Assembly: GCF_000021645.1 (NCBI RefSeq)
Contig: NC_011661.1
Location: 652,723 to 716,722, forward strand
Length of the DNA stretch: 64,000 nt
Source of the DNA: Dictyoglomus turgidum DSM 6724
GTDB taxonomy: Bacteria; Dictyoglomota; Dictyoglomia; Dictyoglomales; Dictyoglomaceae
Reading direction: 5' to 3'
In this document: piece by piece, positions 8,251 through 15,945 of the stretch
Layout: every line of letters starts with the position of its first letter
Numbering within the stretch: the stretch's first letter is position 1
Notes under the pieces: model-generated
What the model saw: the letters and a program-made list of their open reading frames with translations, nothing else
Told to the model about the DNA's origin: nothing
The model's database searches: none
Made by a program: the position numbers and the translations under genes

Positions 8251-9888
8251 ATGGGATATAAAAATTTTAAGCTTGCTATTTATTGTACTGCTCCCTTCTT
8301 AAATAACACATCTATTTATAGTCTGGAAAATGATTTGAAATTTTTTCAAAGGTATTTGCATTTGGATAAAGTTTATCTTGAAACCCATAGAGGGAAGGAG
8401 GATGTATCAAGAGAGAAATTACTTGAGTTTAAAAATTTTTTTGAGAGCCAAGGAATAAAAGTTTCGGGAGGTATTACTACTACTATTGATCTTTTGGATG
8501 ATCCTGTACATAATTTGAGAATTTTTCATACTTTTTGCTATTCAAAAGAAACTTTAAGAGAGAAATTAAAAGAGATTGTTGAATACACTGCTAGCATATT
8601 TGATGAGATAATTCTTGATGATTTTTATTTTACCAGTTGCGCCTGTGAAGATTGTGTTAGGGCAAAGGGAGATAGATCTTGGAGAGACTATAGGCTTAGT
8701 TTGATGACTGAAATTTCCCAGGGATATGTGGTAGAGCCTGCGAAGAAATTAAATCCAAAGGTAAATATAATAGTAAAATATCCTAATTGGATAGAATCTT
8801 ATCACGAAAATGGGTATAATCCAGAAACTCAGAAGGATATATTTGATGAAATGTATGTGGGTACTGAGACCAGGGATCCTAGGTATACTCAACAAGATCT
8901 GCCAAGATATCTAAGCTATTCTCTTATGAGATGGTTTGAGAATGTAAAGCAGGGAAGGATTAAAGGTGGTTGGTTTGATTCCTTTGAGTGTGATTTGACT
9001 CAGTATTTGGAACAAGCTCATTTAACTTTATTTGCCAAGGCAAAGGAGATTACTCTTTTTGATTTTAGCTCTTTGAGGAACACTGTATATATTCCTCCTT
9101 TAGGATTTGAATTAGAAAGGATTGATGATATGCTTTCTTTATTGGGCAATCCAGTAGGGGTTAGTTTTTATCATCCTTTTCACTCTGATGGAGAGAATCA
9201 TTTAGAGGATTATCTTGGAATGATGGGAATTCCTTTTGAACCTACTCCTTACTTCTCCTATGAGGAAAGCCCTGTATTTATAACAGAGACTTCTTGTGGC
9301 GATAAAGATATAATAGAGAAGTTAAAAAATACACTCTTAAGGGGTAATACTGTCATAATCACTTCAGGAGTTTTAAGAAAACTTAGCAGAAGAGGGATTG
9401 AAGAACTTACCTCTATAAGGTACACTGACGGTAAAGCTTATTTAGACTTTTTTGCTATTGACCCAGCTATGACTGGCTTTACCAAGTATATTCATTCAAA
9501 GGAGATATTATTCCCGATTCTTGAGTATTATACTAATTCTTCTTGGCCCCTAATTGTGGGCATAAAGGGAGAAAAGAATTTTCCTATTCTTTTGAAAGAT
9601 TTTTATGGGAAAGGGAAATTATATGTTTTAAATATACCCGATAATTTTTCTGACCTATATAATTTTCCTGTAGATGTTCTAAATGAGATAAGAAAAGTTT
9701 TTATGGAAAAGATAAATATATATCTTGAGGGGAAGGAAAAGATAGGGCTCTTCTTATATGATAATAATTATGCCATTCTTGAGTCTTTCTTACCCTATAG
9801 AACAGAAGTGTTCCTAAATTATAAAGATAAAAGGATTAAAATATTACTTAGTCCACACACTTTCAAACTGATAAACTTAAGTCAATGA
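8251..9888 (+). CDS. Uncharacterised protein, glycosidase-like (probable TIM barrel plus GATase-like domain)
   Basis: I do not recognise a named family. The first 290 residues look like a (beta/alpha)8 glycosidase fold: strand-like hydrophobic stretches end in acidic residues, such as EIILDDFYF (about 125-133) and GGWFDSFECD (about 241-250), which could supply catalytic carboxylates. A Cys pair follows in CACEDC (about 136-141), possibly a metal site. The C-terminal part (about 310-460) has alternating strands and helices (SPVFITET, NTVIITSGVL) resembling the glutamine-amidotransferase-like domain that follows the barrel in GH42-type enzymes. There is no signal peptide. ATG at 8251 has GGAGGAG just upstream. 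The stop overlaps the next gene by four bases. The fold is inference and no substrate can be given. Confidence 0.7.
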   Translation: MGYKNFKLAIYCTAPFLNNTSIYSLENDLKFFQRYLHLDKVYLETHRGKEDVSREKLLEFKNFFESQGIKVSGGITTTIDLLDDPVHNLRIFHTFCYSKETLREKLKEIVEYTASIFDEIILDDFYFTSCACEDCVRAKGDRSWRDYRLSLMTEISQGYVVEPAKKLNPKVNIIVKYPNWIESYHENGYNPETQKDIFDEMYVGTETRDPRYTQQDLPRYLSYSLMRWFENVKQGRIKGGWFDSFECDLTQYLEQAHLTLFAKAKEITLFDFSSLRNTVYIPPLGFELERIDDMLSLLGNPVGVSFYHPFHSDGENHLEDYLGMMGIPFEPTPYFSYEESPVFITETSCGDKDIIEKLKNTLLRGNTVIITSGVLRKLSRRGIEELTSIRYTDGKAYLDFFAIDPAMTGFTKYIHSKEILFPILEYYTNSSWPLIVGIKGEKNFPILLKDFYGKGKLYVLNIPDNFSDLYNFPVDVLNEIRKVFMEKINIYLEGKEKIGLFLYDNNYAILESFLPYRTEVFLNYKDKRIKILLSPHTFKLINLSQ

Positions 9889-10924: not shown

Positions 10925-11386
10925 TTATTTTTGATGTCTGAAAAGTAAAAATACTCCAACAATTATAAGGACTATTGGTATGAGATATCTTAAGTAGTCG
11001 GGGAAACTTTGGATTAGGCTAATTAAAATACCAATTATAATTAATATTATTCCAGGATATAAAGACCAATATTTTTCTCCAGGACTAATATCTCTTTTTC
11101 CAAAATAATGAATAAAATATATTCCTAAGAAGCCTATTCCTATAAAAGTTAGACTGTGAATTGGGTTTATATTAAAAAGATTATTTACTGTGTTAAAGAG
11201 AAATATAGAAAAAAGAATGCATCCTGGGATCAAGAATCCAATATTTCTATTCATTCTAAAATATAGAATTAAAAAGATAGCGCTCAAAAGCAATAAAAAT
11301 ATTTCTCCCCTAAGAAGATTAAAGTTTGCAAGAAGAAGGAAGACACCTACAAGGAGTAAAAGAATTCCTATGGATTTATTTCTCAT
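10925..11386 (-). CDS. Small polytopic membrane protein (LiaI/LiaF-like transmembrane type)
   Basis: 153 residues, almost wholly hydrophobic, with about six short membrane segments in the pattern IGILLLLVGVFLLLANF...GIILIIIGILISL. This resembles the DUF5668/LiaI-LiaF transmembrane region, also found at the start of the protein at 15958. The ATG overlaps the stop of the CapA-like gene by four bases, so it is translated with it. No catalytic residues are visible. Function unknown; a cell-envelope role is an inference from the family and partner. Confidence 0.72.
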   Translation of the reverse strand: MRNKSIGILLLLVGVFLLLANFNLLRGEIFLLLLSAIFLILYFRMNRNIGFLIPGCILFSIFLFNTVNNLFNINPIHSLTFIGIGFLGIYFIHYFGKRDISPGEKYWSLYPGIILIIIGILISLIQSFPDYLRYLIPIVLIIVGVFLLFRHQK

Positions 11387-12432
11387 ATTTGTTCCTCCTC
11401 TAATCTAAGAATTTTCTTTACCCTTTTTAAGTATATTTTATCCTTAACATCAATATTTGATAAGTATTTAACCTTCTCTGCCTTTAAAAGCTTGTATTCA
11501 TATTTACTTCCTAAACTTTTTCTCCAAATGAATATGGGGATTATATCTTTTTTAATAATGTTTACTCTCTCTTTGTATTTTAAAAGGTAAAGGTTTAATA
11601 TATACCCGTATTTTACCTCCGGTCTATATACCCCATATTGGTCAGTAAAAAAGTTGCCGAGAGCATAGAAACACCATTTTCCCTCTATGTTTTCATAGGT
11701 TTTAATGGCGTGAGGGTGGCTTCCTACTATAAGATCTGCACCATAGTTTATAATTTCTTTTGCAAGTCTTTTTTGCCATTCTTCTACTTCGTCTAAATAC
11801 TCTATATTCCCCCAATGTAGGTAAACTATTTTGAAATCACAGAGATTTTTTACCTTACTAAGATCTTTTTTGATTTTCTCTCTATCTATTAGATTAACGA
11901 AGTATTCCTTACCTTTGGGTAAAGGAATACCATTTGTGCTAAAAGTATGTGCAAGGACTCCAATTTTTATATTATTTTTCTCTAAGATGAGATACTTTTT
12001 ACTTTCCTCTTTTTTACTATTTGTTCCTACATAATATAAATCTCTTTTTCTTATATTTTCTATAGTAGCAATAAGTCCTCTTTCTCCTTTATCTAAGGCA
12101 TGATTTCCTGAAGTGATCATTATGTTAAATCGAACCCTTTTTAAAGTGTCCAGAATCTCTATAGGAGCATTATATGAGGGGTATCCTGAGGGAGGACAAA
12201 GATTGGTGGCCACAGGAGTATCAATGACAATATAGGAAAAATCTTTGTTTATGTATTCTCTTATATCTTCAAATATTTCTTCTGGGAAATAATAAGTTTT
12301 CCTTTGGGGATCATAATATGAATTGAATAATTGTCTTTGAATAAAAAGATCTCCTACAAAGGATAGGCTTATGGTCTCAAGGGAGTTTTCTTGAGAGTGT
12401 AAGTCAATAAGAAAGGTAATTAATGGGAATAT
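11383..12432 (-). CDS. CapA-family metallophosphoesterase-like protein with probable AUA start
   Basis: Belongs to the CapA/PgsA (PGA_cap) family, calcineurin-like proteins of the cell surface linked to polyglutamate or capsule export. Visible motifs are SLSFVGDLF near the N-terminus, TSGNHALDKG, YLHWGNIEY and GSHPHAIK. The first ATG/GTG/TTG in frame is GTG at 12213, but the family frame continues without a stop to 12468 and encodes the essential VGD motif upstream of that GTG. No ATG, GTG or TTG occurs in 12214-12468. AAGGAG at 12443-12438 followed five bases later by ATA at 12432-12430 is the only start with a ribosome site, giving 349 residues whose first 16 form a weak signal-like segment (FPLITFLIDLHSQEN). 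An AUA start, a recent start-codon mutation or a sequencing error are the options. It is coupled to the membrane-protein gene at 10925. Confidence 0.75.
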   Translation of the reverse strand: MFPLITFLIDLHSQENSLETISLSFVGDLFIQRQLFNSYYDPQRKTYYFPEEIFEDIREYINKDFSYIVIDTPVATNLCPPSGYPSYNAPIEILDTLKRVRFNIMITSGNHALDKGERGLIATIENIRKRDLYYVGTNSKKEESKKYLILEKNNIKIGVLAHTFSTNGIPLPKGKEYFVNLIDREKIKKDLSKVKNLCDFKIVYLHWGNIEYLDEVEEWQKRLAKEIINYGADLIVGSHPHAIKTYENIEGKWCFYALGNFFTDQYGVYRPEVKYGYILNLYLLKYKERVNIIKKDIIPIFIWRKSLGSKYEYKLLKAEKVKYLSNIDVKDKIYLKRVKKILRLEEEQI

Positions 12433-12535
12433 TTTTTCTCCTTGATTTTTTTCTTTAATTTTATATCATATTTACCTTGGAATAACAAAAACCAATGAAA
12501 GAAGTAAAAATTGGTAGAGGGAGGAAATAGGTTAT

Positions 12536-14680
12536 ATGGTTTTTACAAAAGGCGATGTAATAAATGTGATAGGATTTAATGATTTCCTAACTCCAGTTAT
12601 AAATTACTGGGAAGAGGAAGGATATAGGGTGGAAATATCCTACGATTATAGAATTAGAAATAAGGATTACAAATTGTATCTTGTCATAGACACTCCTAAG
12701 GCTCAGGTACCATGGAGGATCCTCTTAGAAGAATTAAAAGAAGTAAAGGGTAAAGTATTATTTTTGAATTATCCAAGAGCTTACAAAATGCCTGATCATC
12801 CCCTTTGGAAACATCAATGGGATGGGATTATTGCTTTCTTCTGGGAAGAATATCTACCAAAAAACATCTACCTTGTTAACTTTCCATCGTATCCAGTAGT
12901 AGAGAAGCAGGTTACAGTATCTAGAGAAAAGTTTAGAATTCCAGAGAATAAAAAGGCAATTCTTGTCATAGCTGATTATAGTTTTGAAAATATTCTTTTA
13001 CAACTCTCTGAATTAAAGAGAAAGCAAGATTTTTACTTTATGGTTTTTGTGTCCACAGCGGAGAGGGAAGTCCTCGTTAAAAGATTTATTGAAAAGCAGG
13101 GTATTGATGTAAATAGTATAACCCTTGGAGGAGTATGGTATGATGAATTACAACTCATATCTGCTGTAGATCTTGTGATTATTGATGGAGGAAAAGATGT
13201 GGAGCCCTTTCACGTATATAAGCTTATAGGTTGTAGAACTCCTGTGATAGTTAAAGACAAGATTTTTACAAATTTTCTATATAACGAAGTTATAAAATTT
13301 GATGGTAAGGAGAAGACAGAAATTAAAGGAATTACTCGTACAGAACTCAGTACAGGTGTGATGAAGTTTAGAAATAAGGAGGAGTTATTTTATAAGATAG
13401 ACCTTATTTTTACTAATGACTATTTTAGAAATCTAATCCTTGGGACTTCTCGGGCTTTTGCTTATGCTCATTCTCCTGAGAGGGTGGGAAGTCAGTTCAT
13501 ATTTATATTTAGAGATGTACTTAATCCTCCTCTTTATATCTCTTCTAAAAAGGCTATAAGATATATGAATAATCCTCTATTTAAAGCAAGACCAAAAGTT
13601 TATATTAATGTGGGAAGGAAAAAAGTGGCTTGGGAAAAATTAGTTTATAATGCTGGAGCTATAAGAATAAAAGGGACTACTTATGTTTTATACAGAGCCT
13701 TAGGAGAGGATGGGGTTTCCAGGATTGGCCTATGGTGGTCAAGGGATGGATATACTCAGGAGGGGAGATTGGATTATCCCATATTTGGACCTAAGGAAAG
13801 CTATGAGATGCCTAAAAATCCTGAGCAAAGGAGAAGATTTCATAAAAGGACTTTTGGAATGATAAGAGAGGTTGGGGGAACTGAGGACCCAAGATTGAGC
13901 TTGATAGACAACAATTTGTATATGACCTATACTGCATATGGGGATGTGGTACAACTTGCGCTTGCCAAGATTCCTGTTGAGGTGTTTTTAAAAGGAGTAA
14001 AAAGTTTTAGAAGTTATGAGGAATGGAATAATGCATGGATTAGGAATGGACCAATTTTTAAATATTTAGAAGATAAAGATGCGGTTTTATATTTGGTAGA
14101 TGAAAGGCAGGAAGAATATTCAAATGGGAAGAGAGTAGAGGATGATTTTGTGAACATCTTTCCTGAACTTTTAGAAAAGAAGATTGCTCTTATTCATAGA
14201 ATTCCTCCTGATATGCAGATTCTTTACACTGATGAATTGAAGAGAAAAAGTATTAAAGTAGGAAGAACTTTTTTAATGCCAACTCCTAAATTTTGGGATA
14301 GTATAAAGATTGGTGCAGGAGCTCCTCCTTTGAAGACAAAATATGGTTGGCTTCATATTTATCATGGGGTAGGAGATTGGATGGGTAAAAAGGCATATGG
14401 TTTGGGAGTGGTTTTGACTCCTCTTGATGATCCAGAAAAAATTATATATAGATCTGCAGAGCCCATTCTTCAACCTGAGGAAATTTATGAAGTTGAAGGA
14501 TGGGTTCCTAATGTAGTGTTTACCTGTGGAGTAGTTCCAAAGAATAAAGATTCCACTGAAACTCTTGATTTAAATGACGAAATACTTATCTATTATGGTG
14601 GTGCCGATGAAGTGATGGCTCTTGCCGAGATTAAGGTTGGAGATTTACTGCCTGAGGATATCATAGCTAAGACTTATTAG
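12536..14680 (+). CDS. Glycosyltransferase-like domain fused to GH130 beta-mannoside phosphorylase-like domain
   Basis: 714 residues in two parts. Residues about 350-714 are GH130: GGTEDPRL (Asp451 the expected proton donor), KIGAGAPPLKTKYGWLHIYHGV and the closing YYGGADEVMALAEI are hallmarks of mannosyl-sugar phosphorylases. Residues 1-330 look like a GT-B glycosyltransferase, with a Rossmann-type strand KKAILVIADY and a nucleotide-domain pattern (YDELQLISAVDLVIIDGG...YKLIGCRTPVIV), but I see no clear sugar-nucleotide EX7E motif. Ordinary GH130 enzymes are about 300-400 residues, so the extra domain is unusual. ATG at 12536 has GGGAGG about ten bases upstream. A phosphorylase acting on mannosyl-glucose would be a natural partner for the cellobiose 2-epimerase at 6966. 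Cytoplasmic. The 3' end overlaps bioY (convergent) by 14 bases. Confidence 0.85.
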   Translation: MVFTKGDVINVIGFNDFLTPVINYWEEEGYRVEISYDYRIRNKDYKLYLVIDTPKAQVPWRILLEELKEVKGKVLFLNYPRAYKMPDHPLWKHQWDGIIAFFWEEYLPKNIYLVNFPSYPVVEKQVTVSREKFRIPENKKAILVIADYSFENILLQLSELKRKQDFYFMVFVSTAEREVLVKRFIEKQGIDVNSITLGGVWYDELQLISAVDLVIIDGGKDVEPFHVYKLIGCRTPVIVKDKIFTNFLYNEVIKFDGKEKTEIKGITRTELSTGVMKFRNKEELFYKIDLIFTNDYFRNLILGTSRAFAYAHSPERVGSQFIFIFRDVLNPPLYISSKKAIRYMNNPLFKARPKVYINVGRKKVAWEKLVYNAGAIRIKGTTYVLYRALGEDGVSRIGLWWSRDGYTQEGRLDYPIFGPKESYEMPKNPEQRRRFHKRTFGMIREVGGTEDPRLSLIDNNLYMTYTAYGDVVQLALAKIPVEVFLKGVKSFRSYEEWNNAWIRNGPIFKYLEDKDAVLYLVDERQEEYSNGKRVEDDFVNIFPELLEKKIALIHRIPPDMQILYTDELKRKSIKVGRTFLMPTPKFWDSIKIGAGAPPLKTKYGWLHIYHGVGDWMGKKAYGLGVVLTPLDDPEKIIYRSAEPILQPEEIYEVEGWVPNVVFTCGVVPKNKDSTETLDLNDEILIYYGGADEVMALAEIKVGDLLPEDIIAKTY

Positions 14681-15182: not shown

Positions 15183-15324
15183 ATGCTATCTTCACCTCCG
15201 GTTTTAGGGATTTTAGAAAGGGATTATATCATCTTTATTTTAAAGAAAATTTAAAATTTTGGTTGCAACTTTTAATGGGGTAATAGAGTATTTACAAGTG
15301 AGTAAAAAGGGAGGAGGTAAATTT

Positions 15325-15570
15325 ATGGAGAAAAAGCTGTATAGAAGTAGGAAGAACAGAGTCATTTTAGGAGTTTGTGGAGGAATAGCGGAATATTTAA
15401 ATATTGATCCTACAATAGTTAGGCTTATTTTTATTTTTCTTCTCATACCCTTTAATTTTACTCTAATAATATTATATTTCCTTTCAGCCTTTGTTATTCC
15501 TGAAGAGCCTGAAAACATAGAGAGAAAAGACGATACTATAACACCTTCGGGTCCAGCGCAACATCTATAA
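15325..15570 (+). CDS. PspC-domain protein, short copy
   Basis: An 81-residue protein with the PspC domain: KKLYRSRKNRVILGVCGGIAEY followed by one membrane segment and a FVIPEEPE tail. PspC proteins sense or buffer membrane stress, often with LiaF- or LiaI-like partners. ATG at 15325 is chosen because GGGAGGAGG ends seven bases upstream; the open frame reaches 15259, but that extension has no ribosome site or family similarity. It is the first of three genes (15325-16848) on one strand and is nearly duplicated by the next gene. Confidence 0.88.
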   Translation: MEKKLYRSRKNRVILGVCGGIAEYLNIDPTIVRLIFIFLLIPFNFTLIILYFLSAFVIPEEPENIERKDDTITPSGPAQHL

Positions 15571-15585
15571 AGGGAGGAAGAAAAT

Positions 15586-15945
15586 ATGGAAAAAAAACTT
15601 TATAAAAGTAAAAAAGATAGGATTTTTTTAGGAGTTTGTGGAGGAATAGGTGAATATTTGGGTATAGACCCTGTTTTAATAAGACTTATTTTTATATTTT
15701 CAATTCTTTTTTTAGGTCCTTTAAGTGTTCTTCTTTATATTATTTGTGCTCTTGTTATTCCTGAAGAGCCTGAATATAGTGAACCTCGCTCTTATAGGAG
15801 TGATGGAGAACTTTTGGGATGGTTATTTCTTGCTATTGGAGTTTATTTTCTAGGAAGGACTTTTGGGATTTTTCATGTCTCTTTTGGTTTAATGCTTGCT
15901 TTACTTTTTATCTTTTTGGGTATTTTACTTCTTTTTAAAAAATAA
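15586..15945 (+). CDS. PspC-domain protein, long copy
   Basis: 119 residues. The N-terminal 65 residues repeat the PspC domain of the upstream gene (KKLYKSKKDRIFLGVCGGIGEYL, then VIPEEPE), pointing to tandem duplication. The extra C-terminal half adds two hydrophobic segments (LLGWLFLAIGVYFLG and a Leu/Phe-rich tail) that the short copy lacks. GGGAGG lies about 12 bases before ATG 15586. Thirteen bases separate it from the LiaF-like gene, so an operon is likely. Expected role: membrane-stress response at the inner membrane. Confidence 0.88.
   Translation: MEKKLYKSKKDRIFLGVCGGIGEYLGIDPVLIRLIFIFSILFLGPLSVLLYIICALVIPEEPEYSEPRSYRSDGELLGWLFLAIGVYFLGRTFGIFHVSFGLMLALLFIFLGILLLFKK

Follow-up and report, generated by a model that had tools for sequence, protein, structure and literature searches.

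The 714-residue protein encoded in the analyzed window (the whole 64,000-nucleotide stretch of the Dictyoglomus turgidum DSM 6724 genome) is probably an intracellular beta-1,2-mannoside phosphorylase of family GH130 carrying a non-catalytic GT-B module at its N-terminus. The gene is an uninterrupted frame with an ATG start (Table 1), and the genome, a single contig of 1,855,560 bases, carries a second, ordinary GH130 gene elsewhere. Four other Dictyoglomota genomes carried the complete fusion, and a fifth carried it cut by the contig end; because of this recurrence, the fusion is not a sequencing accident.

The neighbours of the fusion gene, a capsule-synthesis-type PGA_cap gene and BioY according to Pfam, provide no pathway context for it. 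Note that homologous N-terminal sequence of the PGA_cap gene (window 11383-12213, minus strand) extends in frame beyond the listed GTG in the 5' direction, and no ATG, GTG or TTG start was seen in this upstream extension. Additionally, two neighbouring small similar genes, SRKNRVILGVCGGIAEYL and SKKDRIFLGVCGGIGEYL, were observed at window 15259-15945 (plus strand), apparently as a tandem duplication, and a 545-residue protein without a Pfam match at E<1 is encoded at window 8251-9888 (plus strand).

Table 1 Features of the fusion gene, in window coordinates
Feature	Position	Strand	Basis or remark
Probable ribosome-binding site GGGAGG, 11 nt 5' of ATG	12519..12524	+	Direct sequence reading
Fusion gene, N-terminal GT-B-like domain and C-terminal GH130, 714 aa	12536..14680	+	Kept in other Dictyoglomota
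Residues 1-337, degenerate GT4-like GT-B domain	12536..13546	+	Fold model, Foldseek, hhalign, retention 15/42
HSPERVGSQF (residues 312-321), most conserved segment in the N-terminal domain, at the C-terminal helix of its GT-B fold, preceding GH130	13469..13498	+	Alignments
Residues 338-714, GH130 domain, five-bladed propeller family	13547..14677	+	Pfam and alignments
E450-D451 in GGTEDPR, catalytic Asp and adjacent Glu (BT3780 E141/D142)	13883..13888	+	Alignment; roles from PMC4599007
K514 in DKDAVL, aligned with BT3780 K199	14075..14077	+	Alignment to 9fj8 and 7fip; role from PMC4599007
Insertion of residues 519-541 between the KDAVL and FPEL motifs, a feature of the fused clade	14090..14158	+	Alignments

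The GH130 half

The Pfam model Glyco_hydro_130 (PF04041) matched residues 370-704 with E=2.5e-35 and 122 bits (cut-off, 26), and the closest solved relatives by sequence were the 1,2-beta-oligomannan phosphorylase 9fj8 and the beta-1,2-mannobiose phosphorylase 7fip. With 162 bits, the score of NF052550 (beta-1,2-mannobiose phosphorylase) fell short of the equivalog cut-off (450), and the substrate is therefore predicted rather than assigned; NF058598 (beta-1,2-mannosidase) was well behind at 54.6 bits. The invariant catalytic Asp was found in an (E/Y)DPR-type motif, E450-D451-P-R, which aligned with 9fj8 and 7fip, and the roles of the corresponding pair at the GH130 catalytic site have been described for BT3780 (PMC4599007). 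In the same alignment, K514 paired with the NKDA motif of both enzymes; its BT3780 counterpart is reported to set beta-1,2-mannosidic specificity and is conserved in the beta-1,2-specific GH130 members (PMC4599007). The HR, K-T and YH motifs, which would supply the three basic phosphate-contacting residues that take the place of the mannosidase glutamates, matched in a comparison with these two phosphorylases alone. The best-scoring matches, the ED pair and K514 make a beta-1,2-mannoside phosphorylase the most likely prediction for this half. Man-Glc, which the preliminary description had named as a substrate to assay, is a weaker candidate than beta-1,2-linked mannosides, given that beta-1,2-mannobiose and 1,2-beta-oligomannan phosphorylases are the relatives with the highest scores.

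It is improbable that the GH130 half is instead a hydrolase or a GDP-Man-using, GT108-like synthase. GH130 does include beta-1,2-mannosidases (PMC4599007), and the Leishmania GT108 enzymes, which have the same fold, act both as transferases and as phosphorylases (PMC8950772), but the top curated and structural matches are phosphorylases, and the mannosidase score is much weaker. The likeness to Leishmania GT108 (mannogen), drawn by description alone, comprises the propeller fold and the beta-1,2-mannan chemistry; the difference is that one propeller does both reactions in Leishmania, where a GT-B domain is not reported (PMC8950772).

For the predicted phosphorylase, the closest known systems are the Thermoanaerobacter beta-1,2-mannoside phosphorylases Teth514_1788 and Teth514_1789, together with 9fj8 and 7fip. 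The catalytic ED and the KDA lysine of the latter two are shared by the Dictyoglomus protein; however, all four are single-domain enzymes of about 300-313 residues with neither a fused GT-B domain nor the insertion between KDAVL and FPEL, both of which are present in Dictyoglomus. In Thermoanaerobacter, the GH130 genes are reported to share their cluster with a gene for a GT4 enzyme and one for mannose-1-phosphate guanylyltransferase (PMC4264767).

The N-terminal GT-B domain

About 337 residues precede the Pfam GH130 domain, and their preliminary description as GT-B-like was borne out by structure prediction and structural search. By sequence, residues 1-333 matched nothing in Pfam at E<1 or in the PDB at E<10, and nothing useful was obtained from NCBIfam and plasmids (an xylF match with E=0.23 was disregarded). 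Residues 1-343 were modelled with AlphaFold from 13 related sequences (mean pLDDT 83), and the model matched GT4 enzymes of the GT-B fold in a Foldseek search of the PDB (MshA with E=1.3e-8, BshA with TM 0.66-0.69), the PDB matches as a whole, at E about 1e-8 and TM about 0.6-0.69, placing a GT-B fold in this domain. Profile comparison by hhalign connected the Dictyoglomus N-terminus with the intact GT relatives (99.7% probability, E=1.1e-25) and the intact GT family with GT4 proteins (E=1.9e-31). Moreover, the intact N-termini of the relatives L024 and L025, as well as most of six further GT sequences scanned, matched GT4 Pfam models below the cut-offs; the Dictyoglomus protein itself gave no hit to these models. 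Judged from the fold model and these alignments, residues 1-337 are a GT-B domain that derives from a GT4-like partner. The competing identity, a non-transferase domain of known type that regularly accompanies GH130, was rejected on the basis of the GT-B model. The fold model of the full-length protein was poor (pLDDT 58), so the domain interface is not readable from it.

The retaining GT4 enzymes MshA, BshA and PimA share the GT-B fold and profile homology with this domain (the PimA matches being weak); unlike them, the Dictyoglomus domain has no glycine-rich loop and no recognisable GT4 donor motif, and it is shorter than the matched GT4 enzymes. The extent of the loss was estimated at the 42 columns that are conserved at >=85% in the intact GT family, including a W-N-x3-G loop, D-E-x2-V-x-R-C, a His and S-S. 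The intact-domain fused relatives retained 37-41 of these 42 residues, and the Dictyoglomus protein kept 15, with 19 changed and 8 deleted. In particular, the glycine-rich acceptor loop and a conserved block of about 40 residues were deleted, the conserved His of the family was gone, and the "SST" donor-side motif was replaced.

These losses separate the two functional options of the preliminary description. A degenerate sugar-binding or regulatory module fits the data; joined synthesis and phosphorolysis does not fit the Dictyoglomus protein because this protein lacks the glycine-rich loop, the approximately 40-residue block, the His and the SST motif. A bifunctional enzyme, in which the N-terminal domain would be an active mannosyltransferase making the glycan for GH130 phosphorolysis, could draw on the relation of the fold to GT4, on the full set of family-conserved residues in the intact relatives, and on one gene cluster that includes a mannose-1-phosphate-guanylyltransferase-like nucleotidyltransferase fragment and inositol-1-phosphate synthase. 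It is nevertheless highly improbable, given the missing elements and the GT4 E-x7-E motif, which was not recognisable in the alignment even in the intact family. A rewired active site could exist in the Dictyoglomus N-terminal domain; dual synthesis and phosphorolysis in this protein is unlikely. For the intact-GT relatives, a joined GT and phosphorylase remains a relevant idea.

For the two closest Dictyoglomus species, dN/dS was 0.11 in the N-terminal part and 0.06 in the GH130 part, and the N-terminal values across four species pairs were 0.09-0.24. Since these values are well under 1, the N-terminal domain is under purifying selection, which is more relaxed than that on the GH130 half. Alternatively, the domain might be a relic, whose role is limited to the folding of the chain and which is tolerated through its linkage to a useful enzyme. 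Its faster evolution (between genera, about 28% identity in the N-terminal part against 63-67% in the GH130 half) and the additional deletions in L007 agree with a relic, but dN/dS far below 1 in all four species pairs, the lack of stop codons or frameshifts, and the retention of the domain in every well-covered Dictyoglomota genome make such a relic rather unlikely. On sequence grounds, the GT domain of Dictyoglomus is thus best described as degenerate yet maintained.

Relatives, gene pairs and circular permutation

In a scan of GTDB contigs, relatives of the same clade were found in Thermotogota, Omnitrophota, Poribacteria, Armatimonadota and one Aenigmatarchaeota-labelled MAG; the archaeal label of L024 could be due to a mis-binned contig. 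In the tree, the fused and permuted GH130 domains formed one clade with support of 99/99. A fusion private to Dictyoglomus was therefore rejected, the relatives from other phyla falling into this single clade. Its sister comprised GH130 domains with a hexapeptide-type N-terminus, a different fusion that is not GT-B. In these proteins (L026:3182-5047, L027:2584-4437 and L121:1498-3138), GH130 was observed fused to a hexapeptide-repeat-like N-terminal region, the hexapeptide-repeat match in L027 being weak.

Searching 386 genomes with a profile of the intact GT domain revealed the partner GT family as a separate gene (>200 bits) in 13 of them. In 11 of these 13, a GH130 gene on the same strand was located no more than a few hundred bases from the GT gene, the two often overlapping or separated by a few bases; in the other two (G073 and G545), no GH130 gene was found inside the 1.5-kb flank of the separate GT. 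Omnitrophota and the Aenigmatarchaeota-labelled genome yielded further GT/GH130 gene pairs. No separate intact GT copy was detected in the Dictyoglomus genome; a first search gave, besides the fusion, one match with E=0.06, and the profile search gave only a distant GT4-type match. An undescribed GT/GH130 partnership is suggested, because the intact GT is usually the next-door gene elsewhere and is fused in Dictyoglomus. Neither the GT-GH130 fusion nor its permutation was described in the open-access papers searched.

One cluster, L112:3762-12819, combines two GH130 genes and three genes of the partner GT family with a mannose-1-phosphate-guanylyltransferase-like nucleotidyltransferase fragment and inositol-1-phosphate synthase, and may point to a mannosylated inositol compound. 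In Omnitrophota, a GH130 unit (L078) and a GT-GH130 unit (L023) were observed within open frames of 8619 and 3609 residues, respectively.

In two Poribacteria (L025:865-3255 and L123:703-2997), one ORF encodes, in this order, the GH130 C-half, the intact GT and the GH130 N-half, and in one Armatimonadota genome (L028:5407-6561), a permuted GH130 (C-half, then N-half) without GT directly follows another GH130 gene. The permuted ORFs begin near FPEL and finish at KDGVLFP(E/G); in the unpermuted fused proteins, this site is occupied by an insertion with LFP-type motifs on either side. An assembly artefact was rejected as the origin of the permutation, given the same order in two Poribacteria and the permuted GT-less GH130 in one Armatimonadota genome.

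Proposed function and implications

According to the proposed scheme, the Dictyoglomus fusion would act in the cytoplasm as a GH130 mannoside phosphorylase, most likely on beta-1,2-linked manno-oligosaccharides, with phosphate attacking the terminal mannose to yield alpha-mannose 1-phosphate, or with the reaction running in reverse. The GT-B domain would have been inherited from the GT4-like partner, which is encoded beside GH130 in many other prokaryotes, and would have lost the parts essential for a glycosyltransferase (the glycine-rich acceptor loop, the conserved block and the donor-side motif). It would have been kept as a non-catalytic module, whose likely role is holding of the glycan chain, positioning of the propeller, folding or oligomerisation.

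A broader proposal, which we regard as possible rather than probable, is that the GT-B partner family and GH130 constitute an undescribed two-part mannoside machine spread across several bacterial phyla as an operon, a fusion and a permuted fusion. In the intact-GT relatives, a single polypeptide would use a sugar nucleotide to build a beta-mannoside and would recycle this product through phosphorolysis, and the GT half of the Dictyoglomus protein would serve as a regulatory or glycan-holding module.

The analysis provides a concrete and testable tie between a GT-B family of unknown function and the GH130 phosphorylases. Should the intact members prove active, synthesis and recycling of beta-mannosides would take place within one enzyme; should they prove inactive, a glycosyltransferase fold would have been reused as a non-catalytic companion to a phosphorylase. 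The permuted relatives, in turn, would be natural test cases of how a five-bladed propeller is circularly permuted when an entire domain lies at the old terminus.
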